64,000 nucleotides of DNA, from assembly GCA_030682575.1 (NCBI GenBank), contig JAUXNX010000012.1, positions 62,001 through 126,000 on the forward strand. Reading direction: 5' to 3'. How positions within the stretch are numbered: the stretch's first letter is position 1; every line of letters begins with the position of its first letter. Positions 35,903 through 45,314 of this stretch are shown in pieces. The DNA is from Gammaproteobacteria bacterium (lineage in GTDB: Bacteria; Pseudomonadota; Gammaproteobacteria; Pseudomonadales; Pseudohongiellaceae). Made by a program: the position numbers and the translations under genes. Under the pieces are notes generated by a model. It had not been told where the DNA came from. It saw only the letters and a program-made list of their open reading frames with translations, and ran no database searches.

Positions 35903-37396
35903 ATGTACGAAGCCAGAACAGCCGATCGCAATCAACTCAAGTCCATGCGGATGTCTCCAACAAACCCTGCTAGACTGATCCGGTCAGTGGTGAACTCCCT
36001 GATCGCACCCTTGAAAATCAATCAATCGGAATCAAACCCATTGGACAGACCTGAATCTACAGCGAGTCGCGTCGCCAACAAATACACGCCAACCACTGCC
36101 ATTGCAGTGGTGATCGCCAACATGATTGGTACCGGCGTGTTCACCAGCATCGGTTACCAGATCATCGATATCAAATCCTCTTTCGCTATTTTGATGCTAT
36201 GGCTGGTCGGCGGGCTGGCCGCACTGTGCGGCGCCCTCACCTATGCAGAGTTGGCCAGTCGCCTTCCCAGATCAGGAGGCGAGTACAACTTTCTCAGTCA
36301 GCTTTATCATCCATCAGTTGGTTTTGTATCGGGATGGGTGTCATTTACTGTTGGATTCGCAGCACCGACTGCATTGGCAGCCATGACATTCGCGGCCTAC
36401 CTGAACTCTGCCATGAGTCACATCATCGAGATCAATCGCACGGCGGCGGCTTTGATCCTGGTGGTCGCCATCACACTCATTCATGGCCGTAATCACAGCG
36501 CCAGCGGTGGACTGCAGAACTGGTTCACTGTTATCAAGGTGCTGCTGATCGCCGTCTTTGTTGTGACAGTGACCGCAGCAGTGTCCAACCCTCAGCCTGT
36601 CAGCCTGCTACCTGTCACCGGGGATGGCGCCGTAATTGCCAGCAGCGCGTTCGCCGTCTCGCTGATCTACGTGAACTATGCCTACACAGGCTGGAATGCT
36701 GCCACCTATATCACCGGCGAAATCGAAAATCCGGACCGCTCGATGCCCTTCGTTCTCATCGCAGGCACATCGGTTGTGATCCTGTTGTACCTGGCACTCA
36801 ATGCCACCTTTCTCTATGCAGTTCCCATGGAGATGCTGGAAGGCAAGTTGGAGATCGGCGTGATCGTGGCACAACACACTTTCGGCGAAACCGGTGCGTT
36901 GATCATGGGGGGCGTCTTGTCACTGCTGCTGATCTCCACTGTCAGCGCCATGTTGATGGCTGGGCCACGGGTATTGCAGGTTATGGGGGAGGACTTTCGA
37001 CTCTTCAAAATGCTGGCTGTAAGCAACGCGGGCGGCGTACCGCGCACAGCCATTTATACACAGGGCGGATTGACCGTGCTCTTCATCGTGACGTCTACCT
37101 TCGAATCGGTGCTGGTCTTCTCCGGATTCATTCTCGGGCTGAGCTCACTCGCCACCGTACTTGGCGTATTCGTCCTGAGATTCAGGAAAGGGGCAGACAA
37201 CGGCCCGGACAATACCGGCTATCGCACCTGGCTTTACCCGCTGCCCCCACTTATCTATAGCGCGATCATGCTGTGGACCCTGACGTTCATCACAATCAAC
37301 AGACCGCAAGAGGCGATCGTGGCGGCAATTGTCATCACGCTGGGTTTTGTAAGTTACGGACTGACTGAACGCGCATCAACGCGGTCTCTGTCCTGA
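35903..37396 (+). CDS. APC-superfamily amino acid permease
   Basis: A 497-residue frame with 12 predicted membrane helices. The first helix carries the substrate-site motif IANMIGTGVFTSIG, followed by LASRLPRSGGEYNFLSQLY, both hallmarks of the APC amino acid transporters. The first 55 or so residues are polar and unlike the family N-terminus, so the true start may be internal (ATG at 35945 or 35951, or TTG at 36041). Substrate not predictable. It is convergent with the phosphodiesterase operon. Confidence 0.88.
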   Translation: MYEARTADRNQLKSMRMSPTNPARLIRSVVNSLIAPLKINQSESNPLDRPESTASRVANKYTPTTAIAVVIANMIGTGVFTSIGYQIIDIKSSFAILMLWLVGGLAALCGALTYAELASRLPRSGGEYNFLSQLYHPSVGFVSGWVSFTVGFAAPTALAAMTFAAYLNSAMSHIIEINRTAAALILVVAITLIHGRNHSASGGLQNWFTVIKVLLIAVFVVTVTAAVSNPQPVSLLPVTGDGAVIASSAFAVSLIYVNYAYTGWNAATYITGEIENPDRSMPFVLIAGTSVVILLYLALNATFLYAVPMEMLEGKLEIGVIVAQHTFGETGALIMGGVLSLLLISTVSAMLMAGPRVLQVMGEDFRLFKMLAVSNAGGVPRTAIYTQGGLTVLFIVTSTFESVLVFSGFILGLSSLATVLGVFVLRFRKGADNGPDNTGYRTWLYPLPPLIYSAIMLWTLTFITINRPQEAIVAAIVITLGFVSYGLTERASTRSLS

Positions 37397-37412
37397 TTTC
37401 TGCAACGTTCCT

Positions 37413-39812
37413 TCATTCCCCCGGTATGTGCAACACGGCCATCAAAGGCAAGTGATCGGATGCCACTCGCGCCAATCGAGAGTTCGGCACCTGAATGGCA
37501 GTGACGCTGATGCCCGGACTGACGAATATATGATCGATACGCGCAGCAGGCAGTCGACTGTAGTATGTCCCCTTCGGCCGGTGCCCCTTCAGCGTGGCTT
37601 GCACATCGTTGAATCGCCCTTCCAACAGTCGGCACGCAGGAGAGCTGACCTGAGCGTTGAAATCTCCACACAGGACTACCGGTCCGTGGCATTCCGGATG
37701 ACCCAGCCAGCCTTCACCAACCAAGGCTTCCATCTGCAGTTGACGCTCCTTCGCGGAAAGCCCCAGATGAGTATTGAGGATATTCAACCTGGCCCCATGC
37801 CACTCTACTTCTACCCATAACGCGCCACGCGGTTCAGTGCCATTTCCTGGCAACGCTGCGGCTTTGATTTTCCTCATCGGCAAATGCGTCAGGATTGCTT
37901 CACCGTACTTCTCTTCCTCAATGTTCAATGCCGGGTGGAAGTGAAAATTCATTTCCAGATAGCGGGCAATGTCTGCAGCCTGATCTTCGCCTTCGCTGCG
38001 GGCCCTGCCAACATCCAATTCCTGCAGCGCCACTACATCGGGATTCAGTTGCGCAATCACACGGGCAATTCGTTCTGTAACAAGTTTGCCATCGAGCCCC
38101 ACACAACCGTGCACGTTATAAGTCAGGATCCGCAGAGTTTCCTTCACAGGATCACTCCCGCGCTTGTACCGACTCTCATTCGGTTCGCTGAGACGCCCCA
38201 GGTGGCGCAACGCGGCATTACGCAGATCAACAGGCCGACAATAGCCTTTCCGGGCGCTCTTGATGGGAGCATCAATGGGCAAAAGATTGAACGCGCGGGT
38301 TTCCTCATGCGTCAGTCCCGCATGAGAGCCATTCTCCGTCGCGAACGTAATGTTCTTTGAGCCCTTGCGCCATCCCAACAGGGTCAGTTCACCCGCACCG
38401 GGATGGCGACACAACCTCTCCAGATCTTCGCCTATCTCAGACAGGAACGGATGGTCGTGGCCAAACAACTCCGCTGTCTGCTGTGGCAAAAGGTATTCGC
38501 CATCCGCTGCCCATGCCCGCAACTGATCTCCTTCGCGTCCGGTGACCACTGCGGGCACATGGTGGGTCGTGGCCAGTTCAACAGCAATGTGAGTCAGTAT
38601 CCCGGGGGCAACGGCCTGTGGAAAATACACGAAGCCGACCGGGCCCAGCCCAACAACCTGAATCTCCAATTCAGCGTCATTTACCGTAGCAGAACCTACC
38701 ACCGGAAACAGACGCTGTGACTTCTGGCCTCCAAGCATTCGCACGCGGTGCGTCTCTACGCCTCCACCGCCGCTGGCGTGTACGGGAATACCGCCTGATT
38801 CGAGTTTCCCGACAACCGCCGCGACAGCTTCCTCAATCGAATAGCCCTGCAACTTGAAGTAGGACGTGGAGACACATTGACCATGATCCGAGTAGATCCA
38901 GACTTCATAATTACGCCACCGGGCCAATTGAGCTTCTGCATACAACCGATGGATGGCGTCGTCGATACCCTTCAGAGTCCAGTGTGCAAACTTCGACGAC
39001 GGTCCACGTCGGTGCGACTGCTCGTCATAGCCCAGAAAATTGATATGCACTATGGGTAAGCCGCGACTGATGTCAATCTTGCCGCCAATCACGCAAAGCT
39101 CTCGCAGGAGAATACAGATAGCGACACGAGTAGGAATGAATTTCAGTTCCTTGAAAAAATTGCGGCCACTGACCAGACCCCGGAAAAAATCCACAATCGA
39201 AATCACCAACTCGATCACCAGAAGCACAATGATCCGTATCACGCTGTTGATGTTGGTGATAATCAGCAACATCAGCGCGAAGGGATTCACTGCGCGCAGC
39301 GCCTCGCCCCACCCCATCGAAGAAGCACAGAAGTGTGCCTCTTTCACATCTGCGCCGCCGGTAAAACTGTTGGAATACGAACTGCCGCCGCTCATGAGAC
39401 CCACCCGACTTTCGTCGCTGCATTGCTGCTCGATCCTGGAGGCGGCACTGGGCACATACATCCTCACCATCTCTCCGCTTTCGCGATCCAGATAGGAGAA
39501 CGCCGGCACGGCGGTCTTGACACCATAGAATATCTCCGCCTGCACTGCCGGGGTGGACGATGGCAGGCCGGAGTACTGCGTTTGAATCCTGTAATGCTCG
39601 TGCTTGATCAGCTTTTTCAGAAAAGGCATTTCTCCCGAGGCCAATGCATGCTCGAGTTGCGAGCGTGAGAGACCATCCACCTGGATCATGACCAGTCCAG
39701 GGCGCGATGCCTTGCCCTTGCGCACAGGCAACCCTAGCAGGCGGGTCAACCAGTGGCTGCGGCTGAAAAATCGCCTGACATGGCGCCAACGGGTCTCGAA
39801 TCTACTCAGCAT
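37413..39812 (-). CDS. Fusion: alkaline-phosphatase-superfamily phosphodiesterase plus EEP (endonuclease/exonuclease/phosphatase) domain
   Basis: A 799-residue protein. Residues 30-540 form a type I phosphodiesterase-like domain: VMIQVDGLSRSQLE (first metal Asp), SSTPAVQAE (nucleophile), NFLGYDEQSHRRGPS, IYSDHGQ and GSHAGLTHEE complete the metal site. A hydrophobic segment near residues 185-215 (LLIITNINSVIRIIVLLVIE) suggests a membrane hairpin. Residues 555-799 form an EEP domain with RILTYNVHG, VVALQELD, GDFNAQVSS, ARIDHIFVS and SDHLPL. Two phosphodiesterase-type active sites in one chain is unusual. It is the last gene of a four-gene overlapping operon. ATG at 39812 has AGGA upstream; a GTG at 39848 overlaps the previous stop. 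Confidence 0.88.
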   Translation of the reverse strand: MLSRFETRWRHVRRFFSRSHWLTRLLGLPVRKGKASRPGLVMIQVDGLSRSQLEHALASGEMPFLKKLIKHEHYRIQTQYSGLPSSTPAVQAEIFYGVKTAVPAFSYLDRESGEMVRMYVPSAASRIEQQCSDESRVGLMSGGSSYSNSFTGGADVKEAHFCASSMGWGEALRAVNPFALMLLIITNINSVIRIIVLLVIELVISIVDFFRGLVSGRNFFKELKFIPTRVAICILLRELCVIGGKIDISRGLPIVHINFLGYDEQSHRRGPSSKFAHWTLKGIDDAIHRLYAEAQLARWRNYEVWIYSDHGQCVSTSYFKLQGYSIEEAVAAVVGKLESGGIPVHASGGGGVETHRVRMLGGQKSQRLFPVVGSATVNDAELEIQVVGLGPVGFVYFPQAVAPGILTHIAVELATTHHVPAVVTGREGDQLRAWAADGEYLLPQQTAELFGHDHPFLSEIGEDLERLCRHPGAGELTLLGWRKGSKNITFATENGSHAGLTHEETRAFNLLPIDAPIKSARKGYCRPVDLRNAALRHLGRLSEPNESRYKRGSDPVKETLRILTYNVHGCVGLDGKLVTERIARVIAQLNPDVVALQELDVGRARSEGEDQAADIARYLEMNFHFHPALNIEEEKYGEAILTHLPMRKIKAAALPGNGTEPRGALWVEVEWHGARLNILNTHLGLSAKERQLQMEALVGEGWLGHPECHGPVVLCGDFNAQVSSPACRLLEGRFNDVQATLKGHRPKGTYYSRLPAARIDHIFVSPGISVTAIQVPNSRLARVASDHLPLMAVLHIPGE

Positions 39813-39844
39813 GATGATTTTTCCTGGCTGAACAACAGCACGAT

Positions 39845-41134
39845 TCACTCATTGCCGTTCGCCTCATTCTGACCACCTGTCAGCGCCTGATCCCCGGCCT
39901 GGGTAAGCGTCCGCAGCACCTCCCACTCTGCAGCAATAAACCGCATCACCTGCTCCCAGCCCTGTTCTGTGGAACTCCAGCGATCGGGTGATTCGGATTG
40001 CAGTCTCTCGTAGCAAGCCAGTGCCTTCTCTGCACTTTTTTCAAGCGAAAACTGTTCGGCCGTAGCCTGTGCCCCTGCCACCAATTGTTGTTTCCGTTCA
40101 GGTGAACACTGATATATCCACGCCAGCGCGGCAGCGAATTCTTCTTCTGTGGCGTCGTACAGCAGGCGACCGTTATGTTTGTCCTTTACCACCTCCCTTA
40201 CGCCGGAGGCGTCCAGTGCCACTACTGGCGCTCCGGCCGCCATTGCCTCAGTCAGCACCATGCCCTGGGTTTCACTCATGGAGGCAAATGCAAAGACGTC
40301 CATTGCACTGAGGGCATCCGCGAGATATTCGCCCTGCAATATTCCCGCGACAATCAACCGGTCTGCTACACCAAGCCTGATGCACAATGAGCGAATATCA
40401 GCCTCGAATGGCCCTACGCCAACAAGAAGGAACACCGATCCTGGATGCGTCTGCAGAAAACCGGACACGGCAGTGGCGAGAAACTCCAGATTCTTTTCCT
40501 GAGCCAGACGTCCCATGTGCCCCACAACAAAGACATCACGAGGAATCTGCAAACGTCGACGCGCCGCTGCGCCATCACCGCGCGCGAATTTCTCCACGCG
40601 GACACCTGTTGGCACTACCAGGACAGGAGCTGTCACTCCGCGGGCGAGTATCAGATCTCTAACACTTTCACTGGGCGCGAAAACCTGATCACACAGATTT
40701 GCATAGCGAGTCCCCAGTTCAATGATAAAGCGCCGCATCAGATCCGAGTTGCCAGGCACGTAGTGAGTGTACTGTTCGTACAATGTGTGGTGGGTAAATA
40801 CCAACGGCACCTGAAAGGCGCGCGCCATGCGCACTGCCGTCATGCCTAGCAGGAAGGGATGCTGGGAGTGAATGATATCAACCTCAAACTCCTGCAGCCT
40901 GTCACTCAGCCCGGTAGGGACTGGAAGCGCAACAGAGAAGTCGCTCGCGTTGAAATTCTGGATTGCCGGCACTCTGAGTACATCGACTTCGTCAGCAGGA
41001 ATATCTGGAAATTCCGGTGCCACCACCAGCACACGATGCCCTCGCCTGCGGTACTCTTCCGTGAAAGCCTCGACGGAACGTGCCACGCCACCCACATGAC
41101 TGGTGAAGGTATTGGTTGCCAGAACAATGTTCAT
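39845..41134 (-). CDS. GT4-family glycosyltransferase
   Basis: A 429-residue GT-B-fold enzyme. The N-terminal acceptor half starts MNIVLATNTFTSHVGGVARS and includes VDIIHSQHPFLLG; the C-terminal donor half has VVGHMGRLAQEKNLEFL and the nucleotide-sugar motif SETQGMVLTEAMAAGAPVVA (EX7E). The N-terminus resembles enzymes that add sugars to diacylglycerol or phosphatidyl lipids (GT4, MgtA/SQD2-like). The start ATG at 41134 overlaps the stop of the preceding glycosidase-like gene as ATGA and is preceded by GAGAGGGGG. The frame is open 74 codons further but that is inside the previous gene. Confidence 0.9.
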   Translation of the reverse strand: MNIVLATNTFTSHVGGVARSVEAFTEEYRRRGHRVLVVAPEFPDIPADEVDVLRVPAIQNFNASDFSVALPVPTGLSDRLQEFEVDIIHSQHPFLLGMTAVRMARAFQVPLVFTHHTLYEQYTHYVPGNSDLMRRFIIELGTRYANLCDQVFAPSESVRDLILARGVTAPVLVVPTGVRVEKFARGDGAAARRRLQIPRDVFVVGHMGRLAQEKNLEFLATAVSGFLQTHPGSVFLLVGVGPFEADIRSLCIRLGVADRLIVAGILQGEYLADALSAMDVFAFASMSETQGMVLTEAMAAGAPVVALDASGVREVVKDKHNGRLLYDATEEEFAAALAWIYQCSPERKQQLVAGAQATAEQFSLEKSAEKALACYERLQSESPDRWSSTEQGWEQVMRFIAAEWEVLRTLTQAGDQALTGGQNEANGNE

Positions 41135-43473
41135 GACAAAGCCCCCTCTCGCACTAATGTGACAGAGCTTGAATAGGCGGGCACGCTGACACGTTTGAAT
41201 CCGGCCATACGCACTTCCATACGTGGGGTCTTGCGCCACTCTGCCTCCCAGAACACCTGCACTTCTCCAGAAGGATGCGAGGTGATCCGGATCGACACAC
41301 AACCAAATTCTGTAGGCGCAGGTCCGAAGGAGGTCTGACACGTACCATCCAGCCATCGCTCAGGAACACCAGCACACAGGATCAGGAGATCATCTTCTTC
41401 GCGGACAAAGCAGTTGCGAATCATCAACACCCATTCCGCAGAGGCCCACACGTGATGGCCATCCCCCATACAACCGCCGCCAGAGCGAGGATTGATTGCC
41501 TCCGGCCACTGCCCTGTGGATGTCGCCAGTGCAGCAACGGTATCCATCAGAGCAAGATAACGAGGGTCACCTGCTCGCAACAGCACTTGTGCAATCTGCA
41601 GTGTGAGATAGGCGTTAAGTCCGGAATGAATCATGTCCTGAAAGAATGCCCCATTCACGAAGCAACTCTTCATGAGGAAATCGACGCAATCGAGCAGACG
41701 TGGATCGTTGGGGCTACAGGCCTGCAACGGATAGCCGATGGCAAGGGAACCGATGGCACCAGCGTCCAATCGGCGATACGGCGACGCTGGCATTGCCGGA
41801 CGTCCGAGACGTTCTGCGCATCCGCGCAGGCTTTTGTCGATGGCGTCCGCAAATTGTCCTGCCTCTTTGTGACACATCCTGACTCCATCGGGATCACGTT
41901 CCTGCAGCAAGGCTGCTGCAGATTTCAATCCAGCCACGCCCCAGAAGTCATCCCAATAGTAGTAGTCATTCAGGCCAAGATGTTCTGCACTGAATCCTGG
42001 CGGAAGCAGTCCAGCATGGGGAGAATCAACATTTTCAGGCAATCGCTTGCGCGATATCCAGCGAGCCCCGCGCAGGATGGGCCCATCCCATTCTGGCGAC
42101 AACTTCCGGCCTGTCAGCAACTGGTAGCGATGGAGAATCCACAGCACCTCACCATTGGCATCCCACTCTCCTTCCTGGGAGCGAAAGTACCCCAGCGAGG
42201 TCTGGCGCGATGGGAACTTGAGCAGTGCCCGTGCCGCCCGCTCATTCATGCCCACACACAGCAGTGCGTGAATTATGAAAGCCGCGTCACGGAACCAGAA
42301 ACGTTTGTAGGTATAAGGGCCAGGAAACACATCATGAGGCGAATGCAGAATCAGTGAGGTAACGGCGGCATCGTAAAGCATCTGGAACCGTTCATCCGGG
42401 CACAGGAGTTCACAGACCTGACTGCGTTCCGTTTCCCAGGCACTTTCCTTGAATGGTTCCGCTTTTTCACTGAGCAACGGCAGACGTATGGTCAGTTGCC
42501 TCTTCCCGCTGGAATCCAGTGGAAAAACTGTTGCAGCAGTCAGCAGACCGACGTTGCAACTGCCCTCGTTTGCCTGTCTACCCGGCTGCGAGCTCGTGGA
42601 AGGCGTCAGACTCTGGTGCTGCACGTCTCTCTGGCTCTCCTGCGAAGACGGGTTTTGAGAAAACTGCTTCTGCCACTTCATCAGATGTGCAAAGACATCT
42701 CCGCCAGCGTAATCGGAAACATGGTGACTGGCAGCGGGAGAGGAAAATTCTATAGTGCGCTTGTCGTCCACCGTCCAGGTGCGGCGGTCATCCGAGAGCG
42801 ATACCTTGTTGATGAAACTGATTCCCTCCGGATTCAATGGACGCAAGGCAACAACCAGCGATGCCGGAGCATCGCTGGTTCCCGTCACCTGCAGCCTGCA
42901 TACAGGCACGCCGTTCTCCAGAATCACCGATGCCAGACTGCTCAATAGCAATCCTTTGTCTTGCGTGCAGGTATGTACCGAAAGACCGTCGGCCATGAGT
43001 TGTTTCTGACTGCTATCAGAGACATGGGAAGGCAGCAAACATTGTCCATCATCGGTCACCAGCCAGCAGTCCACAGACCAACCATCGAAGAAAGGCGTGA
43101 GCATGCCGCGCGGGTCAACGAGGGGCAGCTCTTCACAATCCGGATAGCCGATCGCGGTCCAGTTGCGATGCGTCAGGTTGATGTGGGAAATGGAAAACGC
43201 CCTGGGCAGGAACGATACGTCGTTGGGGTTGTACTGCCGCACGATCCAGTACGGCCAGACCCAATCCAGATTGTGCTGAATCACTTTGCTGTTGATGAGC
43301 CCACGCGCATGGAAGATGGCGCCAGCGCGCAGCAACTCCACCGGCTCTCCTACTTCTGATGGTTGCGCGAAACTGCGCAGTCGGGCCATCAATTCTATCG
43401 GGTCCAGGAAACCCTGGCTCTGCGCAGTGCGACGAATGATGAAACGCAGTGGCAGCCATCGTGTCCAGTTCAT
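41131..43473 (-). CDS. Glycoside-hydrolase-like (alpha/alpha)6 toroid protein, GH15/amylo-glucosidase type
   Basis: A 780-residue protein. The first 400 residues are beta-rich with no clear family; the C-terminal 400 form a toroid domain with YKRFWFRDAAFIIHALL, EWDANGEVLWILHRY, GLNDYYYWDDFWGVAGLK and RSGGGCMGDGHHVWASAEW. These resemble glucoamylase and glycogen-debranching glucosidases. Asp and Glu in these motifs are plausible acid/base residues but I cannot assign them. No signal peptide, so cytoplasmic. ATG at 43473 overlaps the upstream stop (ATGA). It could trim, or have lost catalysis and bind, the sugar handled by the glycosyltransferase. Confidence 0.8.
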   Translation of the reverse strand: MNWTRWLPLRFIIRRTAQSQGFLDPIELMARLRSFAQPSEVGEPVELLRAGAIFHARGLINSKVIQHNLDWVWPYWIVRQYNPNDVSFLPRAFSISHINLTHRNWTAIGYPDCEELPLVDPRGMLTPFFDGWSVDCWLVTDDGQCLLPSHVSDSSQKQLMADGLSVHTCTQDKGLLLSSLASVILENGVPVCRLQVTGTSDAPASLVVALRPLNPEGISFINKVSLSDDRRTWTVDDKRTIEFSSPAASHHVSDYAGGDVFAHLMKWQKQFSQNPSSQESQRDVQHQSLTPSTSSQPGRQANEGSCNVGLLTAATVFPLDSSGKRQLTIRLPLLSEKAEPFKESAWETERSQVCELLCPDERFQMLYDAAVTSLILHSPHDVFPGPYTYKRFWFRDAAFIIHALLCVGMNERAARALLKFPSRQTSLGYFRSQEGEWDANGEVLWILHRYQLLTGRKLSPEWDGPILRGARWISRKRLPENVDSPHAGLLPPGFSAEHLGLNDYYYWDDFWGVAGLKSAAALLQERDPDGVRMCHKEAGQFADAIDKSLRGCAERLGRPAMPASPYRRLDAGAIGSLAIGYPLQACSPNDPRLLDCVDFLMKSCFVNGAFFQDMIHSGLNAYLTLQIAQVLLRAGDPRYLALMDTVAALATSTGQWPEAINPRSGGGCMGDGHHVWASAEWVLMIRNCFVREEDDLLILCAGVPERWLDGTCQTSFGPAPTEFGCVSIRITSHPSGEVQVFWEAEWRKTPRMEVRMAGFKRVSVPAYSSSVTLVREGALS

Positions 43474-44228
43474 AGCGCTGCTTCCTTGTCTGAACTCATG
43501 TTCTCGTCTGCGTAGCGCGCAAGCGCATTTTGTGCCAGAAGATTGAAGTAGACGATGGTCGCAATGGTGAAGAGAAACCCAACACCATACATCGCCCATT
43601 CCAGATTGGAACGGTCGATCTCGCCACGCATGAGAGAGGCCAGATCACCTGCGATTGAACCCAGGTAAACGTTGTGTAGTGAAAAAGGAATGAATCCCAG
43701 GAGTGAACCGAGGACGAAGCGCAGGAATGAGAAGCTGGTGAGGCCAAAAATGTAATTGAAAACCTTGCTCGGAAAAAACGGAATCAATCGCGTGAGCAGC
43801 ACGACAGTAAAAGAGTGTGCTGCCATCTCGTCATTCACGACACTGAGTTTGTTGTGTGACATGATGAATCGCCGCGCCCGCTCACCCAGCAGATAGCGCG
43901 CAGCCAGAAATGCAATGCCAGCACCCAGTGTGGTGCCAAGCACCACATAGACGGTGCCCTCGAAGACGCCAAATACGAGTCCGGCACCGGTGGTCAGGAA
44001 TATACCGGGCAACAGCAACACCACTACCGCCGCCATCATCAGGATGAACAGCAAGGCTGCCCATGGACCTTGAGCTTCTACCCACTCAAGCAGTGCCACC
44101 AACTGCTCGTGAACATCGAAGAACACCAGCATGCCGATAAGGATGGAGACAAAGACGATACTCGAGAGGATGCCCAGAAGGGGGGCCCAGCGACGCCCGG
44201 TGTTTGGAGTTTTCGATGATTGGGCCAT
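43470..44228 (-). CDS. VTT-domain (TVP38/DedA-like) membrane protein
   Basis: A 252-residue protein with an N-terminal helix (LLGILSSIVFVSILIGMLVF), the VTT core (LLLPGIFLTTGAGLVFG, AARYLLGERARRF and RLIPFFPSKVFNYIFGLTSF) and a C-terminal helix (YGVGFLFTIATIVYFNLLA). VTT proteins of the DedA/TMEM41 class move or scramble phospholipids or lipid carriers. It is the first gene of the overlapping operon; its TGA shares bases with the next ATG. The combination with EEP recalls the YbhP and cardiolipin-synthase neighbourhoods. Confidence 0.88.
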   Translation of the reverse strand: MAQSSKTPNTGRRWAPLLGILSSIVFVSILIGMLVFFDVHEQLVALLEWVEAQGPWAALLFILMMAAVVVLLLPGIFLTTGAGLVFGVFEGTVYVVLGTTLGAGIAFLAARYLLGERARRFIMSHNKLSVVNDEMAAHSFTVVLLTRLIPFFPSKVFNYIFGLTSFSFLRFVLGSLLGFIPFSLHNVYLGSIAGDLASLMRGEIDRSNLEWAMYGVGFLFTIATIVYFNLLAQNALARYADENMSSDKEAAL

Positions 44229-44489
44229 GATTGCTTGCTCGTTTCAGCATTGGTTTTGTGAAAAGATTTTCACAGAGACCCCAGCCTAACAAGATGCAGT
44301 CCTTAACAGCTCGAATGTCCTTGCTTGGTACGGCACCTTTTTCACGTTATGCAAACTACTTCACCGTCTCCGCACTCGAGGAGGACTTCACGAAGGCACG
44401 CCAATCCCGATGGACCACGATTTCAGCAGCGTGTCATACAACCGGGTGTCAAACAACCGGGTTCGGAGTATCGCGCGAGGAAAAATGAT

Positions 44490-45086
44490 CTACATCAATA
44501 TAGGATACAGCGATGCCAGCAGCAGAACCGCCATCGACCAGTTGAAGCAAACCAGCCGCCTCCCCTGCTGCAGCCAGAACTTGAGTGCGGAACCGCCATA
44601 GGCCCACGCGCTGATCAGCGGGGCACCGAGAACCAGAAACAGCAGCGCGATCACTGCAGCGCTGACGGTAAACTGCGCGGGATTGCTGTAAGTGGCCACC
44701 GCTGTAATCCCCATCACCCAGGCCTTGGGGTTGACCCATTGGAAAAGGGTGGCCTGCCAGAAGGACAAGGGTTGGGCGTCCCTGCCCACTTGCAGACTCT
44801 TGCGCGCCGGCCGTACAAGCAGCCAGGCCAGATAAAACAGAAATGTGGCACCTAGTACTCTCAGGACAATCAAGGCCTGCGGGTAGAGCGTGAACAACTG
44901 GCCAATGCCGAGCGCGATCGCCAGTAGCAGCAGCTGGCAGCCGATGCTGATACCGAGAATATGAGGCACGGTGCGGCGAAACCCGAAGTTTGCACCTGAG
45001 GCCATGAGCATCAGATTATTGGGGCCGGGTGTCGCCACCATGGCAATGATGAATAAAGTCAGCGGCAGTAACTGTTCGGGCAACAT
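44490..45086 (-). CDS. LysE/RhtB-family amino acid exporter
   Basis: A 198-residue inner-membrane protein with six hydrophobic helices. The N-terminus holds ATPGPNNLMLMASGANFGFR, the signature of the LysE/RhtB family, which exports amino acids such as homoserine, threonine or lysine. ATG at 45086 has AAGGA eight bases upstream; an ATG at 45110 is less likely. No LysR-type regulator is adjacent. Confidence 0.92.
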   Translation of the reverse strand: MLPEQLLPLTLFIIAMVATPGPNNLMLMASGANFGFRRTVPHILGISIGCQLLLLAIALGIGQLFTLYPQALIVLRVLGATFLFYLAWLLVRPARKSLQVGRDAQPLSFWQATLFQWVNPKAWVMGITAVATYSNPAQFTVSAAVIALLFLVLGAPLISAWAYGGSALKFWLQQGRRLVCFNWSMAVLLLASLYPILM

Positions 45087-45314
45087 GATGCAGTCCTTGA
45101 AGGTGGCCAATCGTAAGTCAGTTTCTGTGCGCTATACAGATTCAGAAACAACGAATATGAGCAGTACAGATATTTTGGCACTCCCACTGTACCGCTGTAT
45201 TTCTCGTCGACTGTATTGTGGTTAATACCTCGGCCGGGTTTATCATACGACCACTGCAGGAACAAAGCTGACCGCGAATATCTTTTCACTCATGCCCACC
45301 CAGAGAGATCAAGA

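Follow-up and report, generated by a model that had tools for sequence, protein, structure and literature searches.

Introduction

Gram-negative bacteria, among them SAR11, Phaeobacter, and Pseudomonas aeruginosa, are described in two reports as pairing a phospholipid-cleaving enzyme, PlcP, with a lipid glycosyltransferase, Agt (PMC4796936, PMC8528852). A compact operon of Clostridioides difficile, HexSDF, is reported to be required for a glycolipid, HexD being a deacetylase and HexF an MprF-like protein (PMC10128005). In the Escherichia coli annotation, ybhP, which encodes an EEP protein, overlaps clsB. What VTT proteins and YbhP-type EEP proteins do in bacteria is, to our knowledge, not clear.

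Here we analyze a set of four minus-strand genes at positions 37413-44228 of a 64,000-nucleotide stretch, hereafter the window, from a Gammaproteobacteria bacterium of the Pseudohongiellaceae (contig JAUXNX010000012.1, positions 62,001 to 126,000). The genes encode a VTT-domain protein, a glycosidase-like toroid protein, a GT4 glycosyltransferase, and a double phosphodiesterase (PDE). The set is conserved across phyla, and it may constitute a self-contained, horizontally moving operon that makes and turns over an alpha-glycosylated membrane lipid, a reading for which we judge the chances to be even.

Results

A four-gene operon conserved across phyla

All four reading frames of the predicted operon were confirmed, as follows.

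43470-44228, minus strand: gene 1, VTT-domain (TVP38/DedA-like) membrane protein, 252 residues (PF09335, 82.1 bits, E 5.7e-23; Kyte-Doolittle hydrophobic segments)
41131-43473, minus strand: gene 2, GH15-like toroid protein, 780 residues (AlphaFold model with Foldseek and VIA fold matches)
39845-41134, minus strand: gene 3, GT4 glycosyltransferase, 429 residues (PF13439, 121.8 bits; PF00534, 99.2 bits)
37413-39812, minus strand: gene 4, double PDE, 799 residues (PF01663 and PF03372 above cut-off; start from homologue alignment)

The original prediction of two ATGA overlaps held at both sites: the ATGA at 43473-43470 combines the VTT stop with the toroid start, and that at 41134-41131 the toroid stop with the GT4 start. 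The third junction had been described as abutting (39845 versus 39812), with an overlap possible from a GTG at 39848; that overlap does not stand. Gene 4 starts instead at ATG 39812: four long homologue matches to the GTG-started frame do not set in before residue 13, and homologues keep M1 of the shorter frame almost without exception. The GT4-PDE junction is therefore a 32-bp gap. Four-base overlaps recur at 43 of 61 VTT-toroid and 33 of 52 toroid-GT4 junctions, and at 8 of 44 between GT4 and PDE.

A scan of one genome per species returned at least 588 candidate stretches, at least 497 of them encoding a toroid relative. The best 80, the window, and one further locus made up 82 scored loci, which were thus picked as best toroid matches and not randomly. 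All four genes occur in the same order and on the same strand at 36 of these loci, window included, an arrangement beyond chance. By record title, the complete set is found in gamma-proteobacteria (Rheinheimera, Arsukibacterium, Haliea, Methylobacter, and others), Hydrogenophilales, Desulfuromonadales, and Desulfobacterales, so that the ordered co-occurrence of the four families, proposed as a check on the operon, is borne out across phyla. The remaining loci hold only the VTT and toroid genes (25, mostly Marinobacter), are cut by a contig end (10), or carry VTT-toroid-GT4 followed by an NPP domain without the downstream EEP (3), VTT-toroid-GT4 (3), toroid-GT4-PDE (3), or toroid-GT4 (2). A metagenome-assembled genome (MAG) titled Halobacteria (L077) probably reflects a misplaced contig.

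That the partners belong together is indicated most strongly by rearranged loci. The order is toroid-VTT-GT4-PDE in a Riflebacteria MAG (L034), where the second gene encodes the VTT protein, and PDE-VTT-toroid-GT4 in a Nitrospinaceae MAG (L070). One genome splits the set, with toroid-GT4 at L008 and VTT-PDE at the distant L108. GT4-PDE stands without the other two genes at L098 and is seen, in the same genus, at a contig end (L099), the toroid gene being found in neither genome. At L006, L007 (both from one species), and L026, the PDE has 539-561 residues and no EEP domain, and a stand-alone EEP gene lies upstream of VTT. Fission of gene 4 was considered for these three loci and rejected: their EEPs are 45-47% identical to two EEPs linked to PLD-VTT genes and only 34-38% to the window EEP. 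By these identities, replacement of the EEP domain by a member of the PLD-VTT-linked family is more likely. As a separate observation, the gene 4 homologue adjoining VTT at L108 (10293-12704) has its frame broken by one TGA inside the EEP domain.

The association was also evident in 274 genomes drawn evenly from the class. Twelve have the toroid gene, eight a full-length PDE, and six both; with the own genome excluded, the hypergeometric P for at least 5 shared among 11 plus 7 in 273 genomes is 7.7e-7, uncorrected for relatedness. Beside the toroid gene, GT4 was found in all 12 genomes, VTT in 8, and PDE in 6. A phylum-wide draw yielded the toroid gene in 5 of 299 genomes, own included. Mirror-tree correlations among the four proteins were 0.874-0.935 over 36 loci, one of which (L012) has its VTT gene 9 kb upstream; without a housekeeping control, these values prove little.

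Marinobacter-type genomes also encode a 760-residue protein that joins a transmembrane metallophosphoesterase-like domain to a GT4 (L094, 1462-3744, minus strand; also L095-L097), the GT4 part of which scores 228.7 bits on the monoglucosyldiacylglycerol (MGlcDAG) synthase model against a cut-off of 400. In two genomes (G507, G542), some 12 kb separate the fusion gene from the toroid gene. A role as replacement for GT4 and PDE was rejected: the phosphoesterase part occurs in 3 of the 274 class genomes, none with the toroid gene, and a toroid-less genome of the same genus (G077) has the fusion.

The toroid gene is absent from congeners

The toroid gene is absent from all 13 other genomes of the genus. 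It was detected in 3 of 95 relatives, namely the own genome, G073 (a good match in the same gene order), and G086 (a distant match). Expectation that relatives would keep the set together thus met a divided outcome: congeners lack the toroid gene, whereas distant bacteria retain the set. The operon is flanked by a permease gene (35903-37396) and a LysE-type gene (44490-45110), which have matches in 14/14 and 12/14 genomes of the genus, respectively, own included. In G010, the closest congener by these flanks (85% and 88% protein identity) and the single one compared for an empty site, the permease and LysE-type genes lie side by side, with 48 bp between the aligned flanks versus 7.1 kb in the window. 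The missing stretch is the following.

37357-44502, no strand: stretch missing in the nearest relative G010 (locus L157); the alignment ends at 37356 and resumes at 44503

Either this genome gained the 7.1-kb block or the other genomes lost it; a gain is the simpler account, and we infer transfer rather than repeated loss. The four genes look like one mobile cargo, acquired horizontally as a block. The repeat scan revealed no convincing terminal repeats. Plasmid cargo was considered and rejected, as the plasmid collection yielded two records, both distant toroid relatives of 23-25% identity (phage records and viral contigs were outside this search). None of the four proteins matched the PADLOC anti-phage defence models at E 0.01. 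Two 15-base direct repeats, GGTTGTTTGACACCC and GGTTGTATGACACGC on the minus strand (window 44429-44458), lie some 200 bp before the operon begins and are possibly an operator.

Gene 4 carries two phosphodiesterase sites that are intact by motif

The PDE protein exceeds the Pfam cut-offs for both domains (EEP PF03372, 76.3 bits, cut-off 24.5; Phosphodiest PF01663, 35.7 bits, cut-off 23), and PF01663 is matched by all 36 gene 4 homologues. Its structure model (pLDDT 76.1) resolves the following parts.

38178-39701, minus strand: NPP/alkaline-phosphatase-superfamily domain, residues about 38-545 (VIA Z 22.2, root-mean-square deviation (rmsd) 3.5 over 342 residues to ENPP3)
39063-39284, minus strand: candidate membrane anchor, a hydrophobic helical hairpin at residues 177-250 that interrupts the NPP domain (modelled as two long helices)
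37413-38144, minus strand: EEP domain, residues 557-799 (VIA Z 30.2 to 4ruw)

ENPP3 is followed among NPP-domain neighbours by ENPP1 (Z 22.1) and the alkaline phosphatase SPAP (21.9). Residues D46, T87, D263, H267, D309, H310, and H497, which by motif we take to be the metal ligands and nucleophile, are invariant in 36/36 homologues, as are N566, E598, H682, D717, N719, D760, D786, and H787 of the EEP motifs. With these 15 assigned residues invariant, the two phosphodiesterase-type sites predicted in one chain both appear intact by motif. Behind 4ruw, the EEP fold ranks with other uncharacterised EEPs, mannosyl-6-phosphatase, and Tdp2; human neutral sphingomyelinase (8j2f, Z 25.1) ties with Tdp2. 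The best 19-residue mean hydropathy of the hairpin is 1.82-2.63 in 36/36 members. Because of this hairpin and a basic N-terminus, read by the positive-inside rule, the protein is probably membrane-bound at the cytoplasmic face.

Most stand-alone EEP relatives follow PLD-VTT genes

The resemblance of the VTT-EEP pair to cardiolipin-synthase and YbhP neighbourhoods, noted at the outset, was confirmed in the class sample, where 19 places match the EEP part of gene 4 alone. At 12 of these (L111, L112, L113, L120, L122, and L126-L132), contiguous PLD and VTT parts are followed immediately downstream by an EEP gene on the same strand. In the three cases examined with Pfam, the PLD and VTT parts form one fused protein; the other nine were identified by tblastn. 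Of the remainder, L115 adjoins a PLD-type gene, L110 lies near a cardiolipin-synthase-like gene on the opposite strand, and five show neither, including L124, with less than 1 kb upstream before the contig end. With the search space fixed at 100000, a profile of the operon EEP retrieved E. coli YbhP at 2.4e-21. Since EEP relatives follow PLD-VTT genes and YbhP adjoins clsB, the VTT and EEP parts would belong to phospholipid head-group chemistry, and the operon would be a parallel case in which the NPP domain stands where PLD stands elsewhere. We know of no function assigned to the PLD-VTT and stand-alone EEP pair.

These neighbourhoods bear on a different account, namely the building of a lipid-carrier glycan, in which VTT would recycle polyprenyl phosphate, GT4 extend a lipid-linked sugar, the toroid trim it, and the PDE release or recycle the carrier. 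The VTT protein belongs to the VTT/DedA superfamily (82.1 bits on PF09335, cut-off 33.9) and matches the undecaprenyl phosphate transporter UptA weakly (25.5 bits, cut-off 250), and glycosidases are common in polysaccharide clusters. On the other hand, the combination of EEP and VTT indicates PLD-type phospholipid enzymes. Moreover, no further glycosyltransferase or sugar-nucleotide gene was recognised among the 40 largest neighbourhood clusters, as judged from first residues, and the clusters beyond the four are mostly limited to Rheinheimera/Arsukibacterium or Marinobacter. We consider glycan building on a lipid carrier unlikely.

The toroid protein defines an unnamed family

The AlphaFold model of gene 2 (pLDDT 78.4, pTM 0.83) shows a conserved N-terminal region (residues 1-110), a beta-rich region (about 130-350), and a toroid domain (357-690). 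The top Foldseek matches were glucodextranase 1ug9 (E 5.6e-16) and bacterial glucoamylase 1lf6. VIA realignment gave a Z of 26.2 to dextran dextrinase 9ju0 (rmsd 4.6 over 527 residues), 23.9 to 1lf6, and 23.4 to 1ug9, with 515-527 residues aligned across the three. The glycosidase-like character originally attributed to this protein is therefore upheld at the level of fold. The GH15 architecture, a beta domain plus an (alpha/alpha)6 toroid, is present, but other toroid families score nearly equally; GH65, GH15, GH125, and GH78 enzymes come just below 9ju0, and GH94 is also among the matches. Because many of these structural matches are tied, the fold does not assign a glycosidase family.

Sequence comparisons point to no named family. 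The window protein has no significant match in Pfam or NCBIfam, GH15 PF00723 included; 5 of 50 homologues match that model, the best at E 0.019, which falls short of its cut-off. PDB sequence searches returned nothing credible, and hhalign against one GH15 protein aligned the RDA region alone, at a probability of 1.6%. Across 50 toroid homologues, the RDA, GEWD, YWDD, and WPE motifs and the GDGHxVW region show little or no variation, and a distant homologue of 949 residues (L003) retains them in part. Two sites stand out.

41947-41952, minus strand: D508-D509, candidate general acid (YWDDFW; invariant 50/50, kept in L003)
41500-41502, minus strand: E658, candidate general base (QWPEA; invariant 50/50, kept in L003)

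The acid role, for either D508 or D509, presumably corresponds to the GH15 W-E-E motif; of the GH15 Glu/Glu pair, placed here by motif alone, E658 would be the base and Asp-Asp would occupy the acid position. Residues 1-110 are among the most conserved and are poorly modelled. A strongly hydrophobic N-terminal segment was not found by Kyte-Doolittle analysis, and for this reason the protein is presumably cytoplasmic.

GH94 and GH65 phosphorylases stand high among the fold matches, and a toroid phosphorylase would turn the operon into a salvage route that recycles sugar-1-phosphate and phosphate from a glycolipid. However, the Glu of the WPE motif, the would-be hydrolase base, is invariant in 50/50 homologues, and phosphorylases are not known to have such a base. 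We judge salvage very improbable.

Distant toroid relatives of about 950 residues are encoded at L003 (19-2868), L117 (8191-11064), and L118 (6930-9803). Two of the three are named discoidin-domain proteins and sit on methanotroph plasmids. VTT, GT4, and PDE are absent from the incomplete annotation beside them, and a GH15-named gene lies near that of L117.

GT4 and the upstream region

EX7E spacing is present in 52 of 53 GT4 homologues, and the enzyme is retaining as judged by its family, from which alpha-linked products are expected with the usual donors. Its best NCBIfam match is the MGlcDAG synthase model NF049988 (132.7 bits). The description of this gene as a glycosyltransferase of the lipid-glycosylating type thus holds as resemblance, but not as family membership, for which the cut-off is 400.

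This match is among the arguments for phosphate-starvation remodelling of the PlcP-Agt kind, in which the PDE would degrade phospholipid to diacylglycerol and GT4 make a replacing monoglycosyl-diacylglycerol; the same logic, a phospholipase C-type enzyme plus a lipid glycosyltransferase, has been shown for that system (PMC4796936, PMC8528852).

Pho boxes would be expected to accompany such a response. Scored against a Pho-box consensus, 16 of 69 operon upstream regions reach 10 of 14 positions, 3 reach 11, and none 12, the corresponding counts being 157, 22, and 1 in 994 regions upstream of other genes from these loci. The 16 sites at 10 or more of 14 compare with 11 expected, the window itself scores 10, and an earlier test against shuffles likewise gave a slight excess of weak sites. 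This slight surplus, not clearly above background, would favour starvation-driven remodelling, whereas the lack of any strong box (0/69 at 12 or more) speaks against it, as do the absence of a calcineurin-type (Metallophos) domain from all four proteins by Pfam and the toroid, which that scheme leaves unexplained. It appears improbable to us.

Discussion

Because GT4 is of a retaining family, the toroid fold is rich in alpha-glycosidases, the double PDE is probably membrane-bound, and a VTT protein completes the set, an alpha-glycosylated inner-leaflet lipid is the simplest account of this operon. The gene set, its order, its cross-phylum conservation, the absence of the toroid gene from congeners with one empty site, the motifs, the folds, and the link between EEP and PLD-VTT are direct observations; substrates, membrane side, direction of flow, and toroid catalysis are what we infer from them. 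In the proposed scheme, the hydrophobic hairpin would anchor the gene 4 protein at the inner face of the cytoplasmic membrane. The NPP-type site would act on a phospholipid head-group phosphodiester, and the EEP site on a second phosphodiester or on the released phosphate, leaving diradylglycerol or a remodelled head group. GT4 would then attach a sugar to that lipid in alpha linkage. The GH15-like toroid protein, presumably cytoplasmic and suited to alpha linkages, may trim or remove the sugar, thereby setting chain length or reversing the reaction, and the VTT protein would scramble the lipid to the other leaflet.

Several findings weigh against this scheme. The 25 of 82 loci, mostly Marinobacter, that keep VTT and toroid alone suggest that the other two genes are not indispensable: ten such genomes gave no NPP-domain match at E 0.001, and the best GT4s in those searched are 31-37% identical. 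No VTT was detectable beside the toroid gene in 4 of the 12 class genomes. GT4 reaches no lipid-glycosyltransferase equivalog cut-off (132.7 bits versus 400 for NF049988, alpha-monoglucosyldiacylglycerol synthase). The EEP fold alone does not favour a lipid substrate, because neutral sphingomyelinase comes behind the uncharacterised EEPs, mannosyl-6-phosphatase, and Tdp2. A synthase and a glycosidase in one operon would be futile unless regulated. For Pho regulation, no clear signal emerged relative to the upstream regions of other genes.

The same genes could instead make an undescribed phosphoglycolipid. The NPP threonine would move a phospho-head-group from a phospholipid onto a sugar laid by GT4, the EEP site would remove it, the toroid would set sugar number, and VTT would export the product. 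The NPP site would then act in the manner of eukaryotic glycosylphosphatidylinositol (GPI) ethanolamine-phosphate transferases, which share this fold. If the proposal is true, the operon would amount to a partial bacterial equivalent of GPI-type lipid assembly that has travelled between phyla as one four-gene cassette. We give that proposal a small chance.

Comparison with known systems

In agreement with the original prediction that this set belongs to no described system, no description of it was found in open-access PMC full text. PlcP-Agt likewise pairs phospholipid cleavage with a lipid glycosyltransferase. The operon differs by its other phosphodiesterase folds, without a Metallophos domain, by the extra toroid and VTT proteins, and by the lack of a strong Pho box. 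In HexSDF, too, one operon encodes a lipid glycosyltransferase together with an enzyme that processes sugar and a protein of the lipid flippase type; by its published description, it is set apart by its Gram-positive host and by having no NPP, EEP, or glycosidase toroid.

On the phospholipid side, an EEP protein again has a phospholipid enzyme and a membrane protein as neighbours in the annotated ClsB-YbhP-YbhN genes of E. coli, but with a PLD-type cardiolipin synthase instead of NPP, and with neither GT4 nor toroid; the window EEP is just 24.8% identical to YbhP, and none of the four operon proteins has a PLD domain. The PLD-VTT and EEP genes of the 12 class-sample loci unite VTT, EEP, and a phospholipid-type enzyme, with PLD replacing NPP and no sugar enzymes. 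For the toroid, the GH15 inverting alpha-glucosidases 1lf6, 1ug9, and 9ju0 share the combination of a beta-rich region with a toroid and, judged by motif, a presumed acid pair. Identity in the structural alignments is 11-16%, however, and the operon protein lacks Pfam membership, has Asp for Glu at the presumed acid, carries its own conserved N-terminal region, and is presumably cytoplasmic.

The operon would join a known kind, the glycolipid-handling operons, with a gene set of its own and a sizeable unnamed protein family at the centre. With one genome taken per species, at least 497 stretches encode a relative of the toroid protein, and neither the window member nor any of its 49 aligned relatives matches Pfam significantly. 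Joined to GT4, a pair of phosphodiesterase sites, and a candidate VTT scramblase, the toroid gives a defined, portable set in which the roles of VTT and YbhP-type EEP proteins could be probed against a single lipid product.

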